Below are positions 1 through 8,774 of a DNA stretch of 64,000 bases, piece after piece; within the stretch, counting starts at the first letter, position 1, and the number at the start of each line of letters is the position of its first letter. The stretch is taken from assembly GCA_946803585.1 (NCBI GenBank), contig CAMPEQ010000005.1, forward strand, positions 155,607-219,606, written 5' to 3'. The notes below the pieces were generated by a model. That model worked only from the letters and a program-made list of their open reading frames with translations. It had not been told where the DNA came from and made no database searches. This DNA comes from an uncultured Actinomycetes bacterium (lineage in GTDB: Bacteria; Actinomycetota; Actinomycetes; S36-B12; UBA10799). Both the position numbers and the translations under genes were made by a program.

Positions 1-563
1 TCGATATGCTGATCGAGCATCTCGCAGTAGTTCGCTAGTAACTTCTCCCAGACAGTCGGCAAACGCTGCGAAAGTGCTTTAAGCCCGTACATCTGAGCTG
101 TCAGCGTCGGCCGGGAGTGTTCCGGTGAGACGTCATCTGACTCGTCCTCGTTCGCAAACTCAACGGCCGCTTGACGACCAATCGCGAATACGAGAGCCCG
201 GTCGAATTCCTTCTCCCCTTGACTACCCTTCACGATCACGTCTTGAGCCCCCAGCCTTAGGGCTTCCCGCTGAGTCTCGTATCTATCGTCCTGCGACCAA
301 ATGACGATAGGGAGCGCCGTGACCGCGCGCAAGTCCTCGATCTGATCGACGCCGGAAGCATCCGGTAACCCAAGATCAGACACCACAATGTCGAACTCCT
401 CAGCACGGAGGATGTCGATCGCTTCCTTGTTCGACAGAACTGAGACAACTGGGAAGTCCGCACGAACGGATGTCTTGAGCCAAGAAGTCAGCAGGTGGGT
501 GTCGTGAACGTTGTCCTCGATATTGAGGACCCGAATGACAGGCCGCTCCCCGTCGCTAGGCAA
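1..563 (-). CDS. Receiver-domain (REC) response regulator with helical C-terminal extension, partial
   Basis: The gene runs off the left edge, so its C-terminus is missing. Residues 10-125 form a receiver domain: acidic pair E16-D17, phospho-acceptor D63 in VVSDLGLPD, S90 and K112. About 60 visible residues follow (an acidic linker, then an amphipathic stretch LPTVWEKLLANYCEMLDQHI) and they look helical; no DNA-binding or GGDEF domain is visible. A stop lies in frame upstream, so the start must be TTG at 561-563 or 567-569; both overlap the last codons of kaiB, implying translational coupling. It is the fourth gene of an apparent operon. By position it may act with KaiB, and its REC-plus-helices layout recalls KaiA3-like proteins, but that is inference only. 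Its receiver resembles the second receiver of the GGDEF protein at 40461-41849. Confidence 0.85.
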   Translation of the reverse strand, partial: MPSDGERPVIRVLNIEDNVHDTHLLTSWLKTSVRADFPVVSVLSNKEAIDILRAEEFDIVVSDLGLPDASGVDQIEDLRAVTALPIVIWSQDDRYETQREALRLGAQDVIVKGSQGEKEFDRALVFAIGRQAAVEFANEDESDDVSPEHSRPTLTAQMYGLKALSQRLPTVWEKLLANYCEMLDQHI

Positions 564-900
564 TGTCAAGACCTAACAGGACCCGATCTCGATCGGAGAG
601 ATCCCCAATGATCCGCTGCATTGGATGCGGCAACTCCCTGATAAGGGTGGGTGTTGCAACGATCTTCTCGTTCTCTGCAAGCTGCGGGTGATCAATCACG
701 TTAATCACCTCGATTGTGTAACGCCCCTCGTCAAGGTACGTCTCGCAGATCTCGTGAAGATTGCGGATCGCAGTCCTCGAGGCCAGCGTCTCACCGGTCA
801 CATACAGCTTAAGAGTGAACACCAATCCAAGATAGCCTACGCGCGCCGACACCAAGACGGGTACGGTGAAGAGCCGCACCCAACTCATGGAGTTACTCAC
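556..900 (-). CDS. kaiB: KaiB-family circadian clock protein
   Basis: The protein matches KaiB along its whole core: KLYVTG at the N-terminal strand, VINVIDHPQLAENEKIVATP in the middle, and IIGDLSDRDRVLLGLDI at the end. KaiB is a small thioredoxin-like, fold-switching protein that binds the KaiC ATPase ring and relays timing or stress signals. The longest frame starts at GTG 898-900 (114 residues) after a GAGAG-like ribosome site; the family usually begins right before KLYVTG, so TTG 823-825 or GTG 820-822 (88-89 residues) is an alternative start. It lies 15 bases after the deiminase gene and overlaps the receiver gene. No kaiA or kaiC is present inside the window. Confidence 0.93.
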   Translation of the reverse strand: MSNSMSWVRLFTVPVLVSARVGYLGLVFTLKLYVTGETLASRTAIRNLHEICETYLDEGRYTIEVINVIDHPQLAENEKIVATPTLIRELPHPMQRIIGDLSDRDRVLLGLDIA

Positions 901-915
901 AGCACAGCGGGACTC

Positions 916-2175
916 TCAACTGACGATTGGCGATTGGGCAGCAGGAATATTGCGGGTGTTGCAGTGAATTCCACCGCCATGCACGTTGAGTGCCAGTGAG
1001 TCGATCATCACGATCTCGCGGTCGGGATAGAGCCGTGCAAGGGTCTCTCGGGCCGCTTCGTCTTTGGTTTGAACTCGCGAATCGCGCCCAGGAGCCCAGT
1101 AGCTTTGGCCCAGCACCGTTCCGTTACTCACCAGGTAGTTGCAGTAGCTCATCGCCGGGAGTATCGACATGTCACCGGCTGGCATCTGCGAACCATCGAA
1201 CATCGTCGTCGCGCCCGATAGTGATGCGACCGTCTGCCATATCTCGTGCCACTCATCTTCCGGTGTCATCTCCAGATAGAACGGCTCGGGCATCGGCATC
1301 CGGACGATCTCGAACGGGTTTCCGTCATGATCTGTGGCAGTGCGTAGGGCAGCAAGGTTTGCTTCCATCCGCGCGCGATTAATGGCGTGAAGTGGGTTCT
1401 CGGCGGCCTCTTGCTCAGTGACCTCAGCCAGCAGAATCGTGCTCGGTGAAACGAATCGGCACACCTCGTCGATGTGGCCGTTGGCTGAGCCTGACCGATA
1501 CCCGCTCGACCCAGTCTCGACATCGATCAGTGGATCGAGCAGGACGTGCTCATCCTCATACGCCGGGTATGGCAGCCACACGACCTTGTCGACAGAGAAG
1601 ATCCGCACGAACTCCGCTTCGATCTCATCTCGGCTCATTCCCGGGTTGCGCTGCAGTTCGGTCTTCTCGATCGCCATCATGACGCCGTGGCCGTTGAACT
1701 CGCGCGCTCCACCCTCGCTACACACACGCGTCCACGCATGTTCGGGAATACCAAGATGAGCCGCGAGTTTGCGATCCACCTGCTCCATCGCCCGACTCAT
1801 CGGGTGCTCACTGGAGGCATAGCCATAGACGGTGCAGTTGATGTCAACGAAGCCGACACTCCCGTCGCTCTCGATCACGCACTCGGGGGCGATATCGCGT
1901 GGGTAGACGTTCATTGACAATTCTGGAACGTGCAGGAAGTCAATCTCCTCGATTGAGAGCCCATGGCTTGAGAGCGCACGTTGCGCTTGCTCAAGTTGTT
2001 CGGCATGCTCGGCGATCACCACAATCCCGACTCGGCCGCGCAGGGCGGCGACTTCGGCGATGTGCACTGGATCGGTTGGTAGTCCGCGAATGTGCTCGGC
2101 CCCGTCCCAAGCGATGATGACCTTGTCCTGTGGTTCCCACTCACCTGGTACTCGCGTCGTCCTCATATCGTCCAT
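916..2175 (-). CDS. Agmatine deiminase / peptidyl-arginine deiminase family protein
   Basis: This 419-residue protein belongs to the guanidino-group-modifying superfamily (PAD_porph). Hallmarks are YPRDIAPE near residue 93, EGGAREFNGHGVMMA near 155, GHIDEVCRF near 235, and the catalytic-cysteine motif NVHGGGIHCNTRNIP near the C-terminus. The family hydrolyses the guanidino group of agmatine (to N-carbamoylputrescine plus ammonia) or of C-terminal arginine; the true substrate cannot be read from the sequence. No signal peptide is seen, so it is probably cytoplasmic. It is slightly longer than typical agmatine deiminases (about 370 residues). It starts 6 bases after the ABC-F gene and is followed 15 bases later by kaiB. 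Confidence 0.88.
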   Translation of the reverse strand: MDDMRTTRVPGEWEPQDKVIIAWDGAEHIRGLPTDPVHIAEVAALRGRVGIVVIAEHAEQLEQAQRALSSHGLSIEEIDFLHVPELSMNVYPRDIAPECVIESDGSVGFVDINCTVYGYASSEHPMSRAMEQVDRKLAAHLGIPEHAWTRVCSEGGAREFNGHGVMMAIEKTELQRNPGMSRDEIEAEFVRIFSVDKVVWLPYPAYEDEHVLLDPLIDVETGSSGYRSGSANGHIDEVCRFVSPSTILLAEVTEQEAAENPLHAINRARMEANLAALRTATDHDGNPFEIVRMPMPEPFYLEMTPEDEWHEIWQTVASLSGATTMFDGSQMPAGDMSILPAMSYCNYLVSNGTVLGQSYWAPGRDSRVQTKDEAARETLARLYPDREIVMIDSLALNVHGGGIHCNTRNIPAAQSPIVS

Positions 2176-2181
2176 CCTGGC

Positions 2182-3798
2182 TTAGCTGACGTCGAACGTC
2201 AGATCAAGTTGCACAGACGACGCAAACTGCTCATCGTGAGTGACGAGAATCAGCGTTCCCGAGTATCGATTGAGTGCCTGTTCGAGCTGCTCGATTGCGG
2301 GTAGGTCCAGGTGGTTCGTCGGCTCGTCGAGGATGAGGACATCGGTCGAGCGCGCGGACAGTAGAGCGAGGTTCACCCTGGTCCGCTCCCCTTGCGACAG
2401 GGTGCTCATCGGCCGGTTGATGTCGTCGCTGTCGAGGCCGAACTTCGCCATCAGGGTACGGGAATCGGTGAGCTCACGATTGGCTTCGGTTGGGAACCAG
2501 TCAATCAGCTTCGCTTCTGAGCGCGGCACGGCTGATCTTTCTTGATTCATGAGTCCCACGCTGCCTCCGCCAGAGCCCGTGACACGACCAGAATCGGGAC
2601 TCATCGCGCTAGCGAGTAGGTCCAACAACAGTGACTTGCCCGAGCCGTTCCTCCCCACGATGCGAACGCGCGAACCCGCGGCGATGGACAGGTCGACTGG
2701 ACCCAGCTCAAAGCCGCCGCGGGATACCCGGGCAGCCTCGGCGGTGATCACCCGTGCGCTAGGTGACTTAGCGGGGAAGTCCAGATTCAGTTGCCAGATC
2801 TTTCGGAGCTGCGTAGGTTGTTCCATCCGGGCGATCTCGCGCTCGACTCGAGCCGCCGACGATCCTGCGGCGCTCGCACCTTCCCGCATCGCTCCGCGCT
2901 GCAGCTTATCGGCGCGACCTTCCGAGTAGGCACGGTTGGCTGCTCCGGTCCCCCGCGCGGAACTACGCCTGGCCGCGTCCGCCTGCTCTCGAAGCCGCGA
3001 CACCTCTTCGGAGTACCGCTGGTCAGCATCGATTGCGCTCTGTCTCGCTCGCTCTCGCTCGCGCTGCCACGCATCGAATCCGCCCGCAAAGCTCACGACC
3101 TTGGCCAGCGCCGGATCGAACTCGACTACACCGGTGATCGTTTGGCGGAGGAACGCGCGGTCGTGGGACACCAATAGGACAGGTTCCCGGCGCGACGTCA
3201 CAAAGTCGGCGAGCATCTTGAGCCCGTCACCGTCGAGGTCATTGGTCGGCTCGTCGAGCAGAAGAACATCGAACTGACTAAGCAGGATGGCTGCGAGGTT
3301 GAGTCGCGCAAGCTCGCCACCGGACAGCCCTCGACATGGGCGATCTAGCTCCAAGGTGAGCCCCACCTCGTGTAAGACCGTCGGCGCTCGGTCTTCAATG
3401 GATCCGCCACCGACGTTAGAGAAGTTTGTGAGGGCTTGGTCATACTCTACGGCCGCGGCATGTGAGTCATCGGTGGCAAGCGCCGCAGCTGCCTCGACCA
3501 ATCGGCCTTCAGCACTGGCGACACCCGTCAGTTGCCGCACCGCCTCGCCAACTGTCCAGGTCTGCGGGACAGCACGGATTTGCTTGAGGTAGCCGGTCGT
3601 CGGATGGGGTGGCGCCGTCTCGATGTGCCCGCTGTCGAGCGGGATCAAGCCCGCGACTGCCTCAAGCAAGCTCGACTTCCCGCACCCATTGGGACCAACT
3701 AGTCCGATGCAATCACCAGCCCCAAAACTGCCGGTGAATCCATCGATCAGCACCCGTGACCCTCTCGAGACCACAATCCGGTCCAGAGTTATCAGCAC
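2182..3798 (-). CDS. ABC-F family ATPase (ribosome-associated type)
   Basis: Two ATP-binding cassettes lie in one 538-residue chain with no membrane segments, the ABC-F layout. Cassette 1 has Walker A GPNGCGKSS and signature plus Walker B LSGGELARLN...LLLDEPTNDLD; cassette 2 has GRNGSGKSL and LSQGERTRVN...LILDEPTNHLD. A charged linker rich in Arg, Glu and Ala (about residues 240-330) separates them, as in ABC-F proteins that act at the ribosome in translation control or antibiotic protection. The start is GTG 3796-3798. It is the first gene of the kaiB operon and is divergent from the reductase at 3900. Whether it gives antibiotic resistance cannot be told from sequence. Confidence 0.9.
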   Translation of the reverse strand: MLITLDRIVVSRGSRVLIDGFTGSFGAGDCIGLVGPNGCGKSSLLEAVAGLIPLDSGHIETAPPHPTTGYLKQIRAVPQTWTVGEAVRQLTGVASAEGRLVEAAAALATDDSHAAAVEYDQALTNFSNVGGGSIEDRAPTVLHEVGLTLELDRPCRGLSGGELARLNLAAILLSQFDVLLLDEPTNDLDGDGLKMLADFVTSRREPVLLVSHDRAFLRQTITGVVEFDPALAKVVSFAGGFDAWQRERERARQSAIDADQRYSEEVSRLREQADAARRSSARGTGAANRAYSEGRADKLQRGAMREGASAAGSSAARVEREIARMEQPTQLRKIWQLNLDFPAKSPSARVITAEAARVSRGGFELGPVDLSIAAGSRVRIVGRNGSGKSLLLDLLASAMSPDSGRVTGSGGGSVGLMNQERSAVPRSEAKLIDWFPTEANRELTDSRTLMAKFGLDSDDINRPMSTLSQGERTRVNLALLSARSTDVLILDEPTNHLDLPAIEQLEQALNRYSGTLILVTHDEQFASSVQLDLTFDVS

Positions 3799-7054: not shown

Positions 7055-8521
7055 CTATCGGCTGACATCGGTAGTTGACCATCCGGTCAGTACGTCAACA
7101 AAGTAGTCGTTTGGACGGGGATCGGGCAGCGCCGCGCACACTTGATCAAGCGCAAGCTGAGGATTGATGCCTGCTTCCTTGGCCGCTACCAGCGCAGCCA
7201 CGGTCGGAGTTCGCGACTGCCCCGCTGCGCAGTGCAAGAAGACGGTGCGGCCCTCCGCTCGGAGTTGGAGAACAGCCTCTGCGGCTTGATCGAGAACGAA
7301 CTCCAGGTGCGGATTGCTAGCTGGGTCAGTGGAGTCGAGCAACCAGATCCTCACTTGGTCTGAGTCACTACTGACACCTGTCGGGCGATCGTCACGGCTG
7401 ACCCGGCATAACGACACGATGGCGTCCACCTCGGTCGGAAGGTGAGGAATCGCGTTGATGGGCCCAATCAGGAGACGATCAACAAGTGGGTGTGGCGTCT
7501 GTTGTGAGAGCGAGCTGAGGTAGCCGTAGCTGAAGCCACCCGGCTCGACGCCCCTACTCCACACGGCCAACGCCAGATCAACTAAATCGTGCTGACGTAG
7601 TCCCGGCCAACCGTGGAGTATCCGCTGCCAGGCAACGGGTACGGCTGAGACTCCTAGTCGTCCACCAATGAGCATCCCAGCGATGGCCGCGACCGTATCG
7701 GCATCGCGTCCACCTCGAACCGCTGCCTCGAGAACCTGGCGCAGTACCCCAGCCTCGAGTCGTGGCCTCGTGAGGTCAGCTCCCACCACCTCGCGGATCG
7801 CCGACCATGCGGCGAGCAGTGCCTCGACAACCCAGCCGTTGCTGGCAAAGTCACGAGGCCGTCGGTGTTGCGAGTCGGCAATGCGGTCCCGCCACAATTG
7901 CTGGCGGTCCGAATCGAGCCACGCGACTCCCGACACCAAATCAAGTCGCTGATTGACCACCGCCTCGCGGATCGCGAGACACCAGAGGACACAGGCGTCT
8001 CCCGCGTCGGGGTCATAGTGCGTTAGAGAACTGACTGATCGCGCTGCATCGACCATCGCAGCAGGATCGTCCAGGAGGGCCAACGCAACTGGTGCGGTCC
8101 GCATCAGTGAACCGTTCCCACCGGATTGGCCGTTGCTCTCGTGGTGTTGCCATGCCGCCTCAGATGCGGAGACTGACGGAGCCGCGTCGGTGACGGCACC
8201 GAGCACTTGGCGGGTTTGGATACCCACATCCTTTGCATGGCGCATCCATCGAACCCAACCGGACACCACGGCATCCTGGGTCAAGGTCGCTCGCAGGTCG
8301 TGCCCATCCGCTGCGGCTTGAGCGATCACGATCGCCATCGATGTGTCGTCGGTCCACTCTCCCGGTGCCCAACCAAAGCCACCCCCGCCTGCCATCTTGA
8401 CATCGTGACCATCGGCCAGCGGTGGCCCAAACTCGTAGCCTGCGCCGAGGGCGTCGCCGCACGCCATTCCCACGAGAACGCCAGCGACCCGGTCCCGGAT
8501 CGCCGCGTCACTGGTTGCCAT
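7055..8521 (-). CDS. ADP-ribosylglycohydrolase fused to tyrosine/dual-specificity phosphatase domain
   Basis: Residues 1-290 are an ADP-ribosylglycohydrolase (DraG/ARH) domain with VGMACGDALGAGYEF, metal-binding GEWTDDTSMA, GNGSLMRTAPVA and GRDADTVAAIAGMLIG. Residues about 345-488 are a DSP-like phosphatase domain with VFLHCAAGQSRTPT (catalytic C431, Arg in the CX5R loop). The first domain cleaves ADP-ribose from proteins, nucleic acids or small molecules; the second removes phosphate. A single chain could act in turn on a phosphorylated ADP-ribosyl product. The start ATG 8519-8521 overlaps the preceding gene by 14 bases; a longer frame to 8602 exists. It is the middle gene of a three-gene unit with the deoxyribonucleotidase. 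Confidence 0.87.
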   Translation of the reverse strand: MATSDAAIRDRVAGVLVGMACGDALGAGYEFGPPLADGHDVKMAGGGGFGWAPGEWTDDTSMAIVIAQAAADGHDLRATLTQDAVVSGWVRWMRHAKDVGIQTRQVLGAVTDAAPSVSASEAAWQHHESNGQSGGNGSLMRTAPVALALLDDPAAMVDAARSVSSLTHYDPDAGDACVLWCLAIREAVVNQRLDLVSGVAWLDSDRQQLWRDRIADSQHRRPRDFASNGWVVEALLAAWSAIREVVGADLTRPRLEAGVLRQVLEAAVRGGRDADTVAAIAGMLIGGRLGVSAVPVAWQRILHGWPGLRQHDLVDLALAVWSRGVEPGGFSYGYLSSLSQQTPHPLVDRLLIGPINAIPHLPTEVDAIVSLCRVSRDDRPTGVSSDSDQVRIWLLDSTDPASNPHLEFVLDQAAEAVLQLRAEGRTVFLHCAAGQSRTPTVAALVAAKEAGINPQLALDQVCAALPDPRPNDYFVDVLTGWSTTDVSR

Positions 8522-8774
8522 CGGGATCACCCCTGCGCTCAAGTACGCGGGCGGTAATCCAGAACGGAGAAGCGAGAATTCCACCGACCGCCATACCCGC
8601 AACGACGCCTAAGAACAGGGTTACGTAGGCACCCCAGCTCATCCCCCAGACCAACCACTCGCCCAGCGATCCTGTCGGAGCGAAGAAGCTCAGGATGAAA
8701 CCAGCGACAACAACCGGTGCGCAGCCAATAACGAACGCGACTCGGGCTACCGAATCCCATGTACTCGATTCCAT
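8508..8774 (-). CDS. Small integral membrane protein
   Basis: The product is 88 residues with two to three hydrophobic segments (about residues 10-32, 37-58 and 58-75) and a charged tail RVLERRGDPDGNQ. No family recognised. It is first in the minus-strand unit and overlaps the glycohydrolase/phosphatase gene by 14 bases, so the pair is translationally linked. It may anchor or partner the downstream enzyme, but nothing in the sequence shows this. Confidence 0.65.
   Translation of the reverse strand: MESSTWDSVARVAFVIGCAPVVVAGFILSFFAPTGSLGEWLVWGMSWGAYVTLFLGVVAGMAVGGILASPFWITARVLERRGDPDGNQ

Follow-up and report, generated by a model that had tools for sequence, protein, structure and literature searches.

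Judged by its sequence, the left edge of the window (a stretch of 64,000 nucleotides, G000:C5:155607-219606, from an actinobacterial genome of 2.71 Mb that is 98.8% complete) is part of a complete kaiB-kaiA3-kaiC set in Actinomycetota, of the kind that oscillates in Synechocystis (PMC11372060) and with an unusual gene order. We read the locus as a KaiA3-KaiB-KaiC timing module, probably acquired horizontally, whose likely output is a diguanylate cyclase (probability roughly 0.6). The identity of the module as KaiA3-KaiB-KaiC is close to certain, a timing function is rather probable by analogy with the cyanobacterial systems, and a self-sustained rhythm is less so. KaiA has long been held to be cyanobacterial, and it has long been asked whether cyanobacteria alone have true Kai clocks. 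None of the close relatives sampled has clock genes; this actinobacterium may carry a cyanobacteria-like timer, and similar sets occur in other actinobacterial families and in Nitrospirota. The locus thus offers a compact, reconstitutable system for the question of non-cyanobacterial oscillators, together with a concrete output hypothesis, c-di-GMP. An initial annotation of the window had proposed an undescribed actinobacterial timing or stress module; an actinobacterial Kai module is indeed present, but the KaiA3-KaiB-KaiC type has already been described (PMC11372060). In two freshwater actinobacteria examined for light responses, all Kai proteins were reported absent (PMC8591293). Our search of the open-licence literature for Kai together with Nitrospirae and a response regulator returned no report, and earlier accounts of actinobacterial KaiA3 may exist elsewhere.

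Read along the minus strand, the closely packed genes run ABC-F, deiminase, kaiB, the kaiA3-like receiver gene and kaiC. The ABC-F ATPase gene (window 2182..3798; NCBIfam ABC-F, 333 bits) and a gene of the peptidyl-arginine/agmatine deiminase family (916..2175; PAD_porph, 181.7 bits) are the upstream neighbours and lie 6 bp apart. kaiB occupies 556..822 and encodes 88 aa. The kaiA3-like gene covers positions 1..569 and continues for 375 bp to the left of the window (genome C5:155231-156175), where we recovered the remainder of the receiver protein followed directly by kaiC. Both genes lie in L009 (C5:141001-161000), a stretch taken because the KaiC family search matched there: the kaiA3-like gene at L009:14231-15175, with a TTG start and a product of 314 aa comprising a receiver and a KaiA-type four-helix domain, and kaiC at L009:12718-14238, with a product of 506 aa. 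Overlaps of 14 bp (kaiB and kaiA3) and 8 bp (kaiA3 and kaiC) join the three into one trio. On the plus strand, a PAS-GGDEF gene for a diguanylate cyclase (L009:11777-12682) converges on kaiC, its end 35 bp from the kaiC end. An uninformative promoter scan of the region yielded no consensus sites, fewer than shuffled sequences did.

The tight one-strand packing of four genes described in the initial annotation is borne out, with spacings of 6 bp, 15 bp and an overlap, although the 15-bp gap between the deiminase gene and kaiB holds if kaiB starts at the GTG at 900. That start would add 26 residues at the N-terminus ahead of the core, and the aligned KaiB proteins begin close to the core. From the sequence alignment, the GTG at 822 is the likely start, which separates kaiB from the deiminase stop by 93 bp; the deiminase and kai genes may therefore not share a transcript. 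The assignment of kaiB as a clear family match holds (Pfam KaiB 93.9 bits, cut-off 27), with further support from PDB KaiB matches and an alignment in which the GDLSD segment is present. Its scores fall below the NCBIfam clock-KaiB equivalog cut-offs (94.4 versus 145.3 and 96.5 versus 110 bits), and the protein is therefore not filed as a cyanobacterial equivalog. A search for a SasA-type kinase found none: the KaiB profile matched one further place in the genome, weakly, in a thioredoxin-like ORF of 337 aa.

The receiver domain of the third protein is recognized by Pfam (Response_reg, 54 bits) and keeps its active-site residues, with the phospho-acceptor Asp65 and Lys114 invariant in seven homologues of 21–29% overall identity. 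Beyond the receiver, the C-terminus matches RsbU_N in Pfam below the threshold (E 0.24), and RsbU_N and the KaiA C-terminal domain have a common fold (PMC11372060). The Pfam KaiA family (PF07688) had no match by hmmscan up to E 1, and kinship to canonical KaiA appears only by profile and fold. Whole-protein searches were swamped by receivers: single-sequence phmmer of the full-length protein against the PDB had ordinary response regulators among the matches listed, and the VIA search with the whole model was filled by receivers. The C-terminal domain was consequently searched alone. A 14-sequence profile of this domain, run against all PDB sequences, placed KaiA in the first eight positions (E 0.0012–0.043), followed by an unrelated entry at 0.57. 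Its AlphaFold model is a helical bundle (pLDDT 87.6), for which the top six Foldseek and top eight VIA-align matches are all KaiA. The VIA-align matches (Z 10.7–11.8, RMSD 2.3–4.2 Å over 89–105 residues) reach Z values attainable by chance for helical bundles, so that their weight lies in the unanimous top rows taken together with the sequence result. When the whole protein was modelled, it aligned with full-length KaiA (4g86) over 300 columns with an E value of 4e-7. Against plasmids, tblastn with the C-terminal domain returned chance-level matches only. The earlier impression of a helical extension recalling KaiA3 is thus upheld by structure prediction, and the conclusion goes beyond predicted structures because the PDB sequence-profile search agrees: on profile and modelled fold, the receiver protein is KaiA3-like and its helical extension is a KaiA-type domain. 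In described KaiA3 cases the gene lies upstream of kaiB; here it lies downstream, adjacent to and overlapping both kaiB and kaiC. The B-A3-C order is one of the reasons for the label KaiA3-like, and we do not treat gene order as family-defining.

KaiC, which the initial annotation had suggested seeking to the left of base 1, matches the family twice within one gene, as expected of CI and CII domains, and passes the clock-KaiC equivalog cut-offs (TIGR02655, 572.2 versus 546.25 bits; PRK09302, 641.5 versus 408 bits). The best PDB match is 8zn5 at 611 bits, with S. elongatus KaiC at about 521 bits. Walker A and the catalytic glutamate pair (EE) are intact in both CI and CII, and the equivalent of Thr426 is conserved. 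Ser431-Thr432 is replaced by an S-S pair, the second phosphosite being serine rather than threonine, and in this the protein differs from every other KaiA3-linked KaiC aligned. The tail lacks the long C-terminal extension of KaiC2 proteins. All eight KaiCs that neighbour a KaiA3 have an A-loop-like GI-x-x-G segment and a tail in which LF or MF precedes the last few residues; this ending is absent from the KaiCs of two actinobacterial genomes (L014 and L015) that have kaiC-kaiB and lack KaiA3. Four of the eight belong to one clade, leaving few independent cases, and the LF/MF tail (e.g. L009:12718-12800) is possibly a candidate KaiA3-docking peptide. In two large actinobacterial genomes (G785, L068:4853-6379; G798, L069:4469-6211), KaiC lacks the CII catalytic glutamate pair and the phosphosites. 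In G785 this KaiC still adjoins kaiB, in both genomes it adjoins a PAS-kinase of the kai-linked PAS group, and these KaiC proteins have perhaps turned into non-phosphorylating scaffolds.

KaiA3 homologues adjoin kaiB or kaiC in cyanobacteria, Nitrospirota and Actinomycetota. Searching named genomes with KaiC led to the Nitrospirota Candidatus Magnetobacterium casense and Candidatus Magnetominusculus xianensis, both of which encode a homologous receiver protein upstream of kaiB-kaiC. The C-terminal domains of these two and of the studied genome gave a profile (A1) that matched in 4 of 396 actinobacterial genomes, the studied one included. A second profile (A4), made from seven sequences outside the cyanobacteria, matched in 11 of 117 cyanobacterial genomes; the match is strong in nine, each time directly upstream of a kaiB, and weak in two (G643 and G587). 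In the Leptolyngbya genome, the sole other match of A4 was the canonical kaiA (E 0.007). Further actinobacterial clusters occur in G327 (two loci) and G412, all A3-B-C, as are the other complete same-strand clusters read. A diverged receiver protein adjoins kaiC in G025, where kaiB is on the other strand, and G494 has a KaiA3 with neither kaiB nor kaiC in the stretch read. The G494 protein (L025:5370-6182) is encoded downstream of an apparent histidine kinase reading frame, and a kinase partner may exist there. G643 (1.9 Mb, in the cyanobacterial sample) has three consecutive receiver genes (L052:4299-6253), of which the first encodes a C-terminus that weakly matches the KaiA3 type (E 7e-7); no kaiB or kaiC lies in the stretch around them.

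The closest described counterpart is KaiA3-KaiB3-KaiC3 of Synechocystis sp. PCC 6803 (PMC11372060), with which the locus shares a receiver and KaiA-type fusion of ~300 aa, a phospho-acceptor Asp at position 65, an adjacent kaiB and a KaiC of the KaiC1/KaiC3 kind. It differs in its actinobacterial host, the order B-A3-C rather than A3-B-C, S-S rather than S-T phosphosites, a proline- and lysine-rich KaiA3 tail and the PAS-GGDEF neighbour. With canonical KaiABC (Synechococcus elongatus and Thermosynechococcus) it has in common a three-protein set, the KaiA four-helix fold and a double-ATPase KaiC with CII phosphosites, whereas the N-terminus here is a receiver with a phospho-acceptor instead of a pseudo-receiver, and SasA was not among the proteins found.

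The cyclase beside kaiC has an intact GGDEF motif and, by eye, an RxxD inhibition site (RHTD-SVARL-GGDEF). PAS-kinase proteins lie near kaiC in Magnetobacterium, Magnetominusculus, Leptolyngbya, G785 and G798, and PAS-GGDEF proteins do so in G412 and G025. When a profile of six kaiC-neighbouring PAS domains (A5), built with the studied genome left out, was run against that genome, the kaiC-adjacent cyclase was the best match (45.1 bits, E 2e-11, nearly full length), and the next was partial at 22.5 bits. Being convergent with kaiC, the cyclase gene is not co-transcribed with it. By adjacency and PAS kinship, the PAS-GGDEF protein is a better candidate for an output than the deiminase or ABC-F protein, and a c-di-GMP output of the Kai module can be put forward tentatively from these sequence relationships. 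In S. elongatus, c-di-GMP changes the clock's period, phase and amplitude (PMC13001216), and PAS-GGDEF-EAL neighbours of kaiC are listed in the Ramlibacter genome paper (PMC3164672). Those loci resemble ours in having a c-di-GMP enzyme next to kaiC; in contrast to them, KaiA3 is present here and the PAS domain belongs to a kaiC-adjacent group common to histidine kinases in other phyla. A wider, speculative proposal is that non-cyanobacterial Kai oscillators swapped a histidine-kinase output for c-di-GMP, the KaiC-reading PAS being carried on a kinase (Nitrospirota, cyanobacteria and some actinobacteria) or on GGDEF or GGDEF-EAL proteins (other actinobacteria). If so, actinobacteria with a KaiA3-driven clock would signal time through a second messenger.

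Directly observed are the three proteins with their intact motifs, the overlaps between the genes, the KaiA-type domain and the PAS kinship, and the proposed mechanism is carried over from Synechococcus and Synechocystis (PMC11372060). In this scheme, the helical domain of KaiA3 would bind the A-loop and C-terminal tail of KaiC and stimulate autophosphorylation at the S-S pair. ATP hydrolysis in the CI ring would then allow fold-switched KaiB to bind and sequester KaiA3, upon which KaiC would dephosphorylate, its phosphorylation serving as the state variable of the cycle. Through the KaiA3 receiver, with Asp65 intact, a histidine kinase could set or entrain the cycle, and the PAS domain of the adjacent PAS-GGDEF protein would read the KaiC state and convert it to a c-di-GMP signal. 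Weighing against the reading as a whole are the 21–29% identity of KaiA3 to its homologues, the S-S phosphosites, the SasA search that found no kinase, the convergent orientation of the cyclase gene and the KaiB scores under the equivalog cut-offs.

The same parts could also make up an hourglass or stress regulator that is not self-sustained, in which KaiA3 is a phosphorylation-controlled two-component input and every environmental signal resets KaiC; a similar scheme has been proposed for KaiBC systems that lack KaiA. The conserved receiver active site would suit such a role, and KaiBC timers and stress roles are known in non-cyanobacteria (PMC10076222, PMC4794148 and PMC5520375). S-S phosphosites are typical of KaiC2 (PMC5520375), and the KaiA3-B3-C3 oscillator of Synechocystis is itself damped in vitro (PMC11372060). 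The KaiC2-type KaiBC timers of Rhodobacter and Rhodopseudomonas likewise combine kaiB, kaiC, a nearby signalling gene and S-S phosphosites in hosts that are not cyanobacteria, but they lack KaiA, and KaiC2 is a separate clade with a long C-terminal extension. In the KaiC tree, KaiC2 proteins (R. sphaeroides, Sinorhizobium and the actinobacterial G864) are set apart, and the studied KaiC falls outside them, as a lone branch among KaiC1/KaiC3-like proteins whose branching order the tree does not resolve. This position, the missing extension and the presence of a KaiA-type activator argue against an hourglass, which we consider rather unlikely.

The origin of the Kai module is likely horizontal transfer. 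KaiB at E<=1e-10 occurs within the order (n=166 genomes) in the studied genome and weakly in one other, with no KaiB in three congeners, and KaiC at E<=1e-60 is found in 12 of 395 genomes of the class including this one, the best of the others at 52% identity. The kai genes have a GC content of 53.6–57.4%, compared with 62.5–63.1% for the nearby ABC-F, MFS and abhydrolase genes and 59.0% for the deiminase gene. The KaiC and KaiA3 trees do not place the lineage, and we therefore claim no donor. No insertion site was found, as the ABC-F neighbourhoods in relatives have no flanking genes in common with the locus. The initial annotation took conservation of the gene order in relatives as its touchstone; the order is not conserved among close kin, which have no kai system at all, whereas the kaiA3-kaiB-kaiC set is conserved across phyla, in the order A3-B-C. 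Confinement of kai to the studied genome among close relatives, a kaiB-kaiA3-kaiC order unique in the sample and long branches in the trees would also suit a recently acquired relic, non-functional or drifting, but all reading frames and catalytic motifs are intact and the gene overlaps are kept, making this quite improbable.

The deiminase reaches 131–132 bits against agmatine deiminase models with cut-offs of 382–483 (TIGR03380, 130.7 versus 381.8) and is classed by sequence as a member of the PAD_porph superfamily only. Its homologues occur in three other actinobacteria of 396 (37–40% identity), none with KaiA3 in the same sample, and ABC-F orthologues of 54–55% identity are found in G122 and G118, of the same genus and family, among other neighbours, with neither kai nor a deiminase alongside in those stretches. 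The suggestion in the initial annotation that the two proteins are outputs or cargo of a clock operon is very improbable: they share the strand with kai and are 6 bp apart, and the deiminase is, like kai, missing from ten family relatives and intermediate in GC between kai and ABC-F, but the pair lies 93 bp ahead of the likely kaiB start and neither occurs at any other kai locus read. Since ABC-F is present in relatives that have no kai, and the deiminase has homologues in genomes lacking KaiA3, both are probably bystanders outside the clock. Elsewhere in the window, the minus strand at 7055-8602 encodes an ADP-ribosylglycohydrolase fused to a dual-specificity-phosphatase-like domain, the latter just below the Pfam cut-off.
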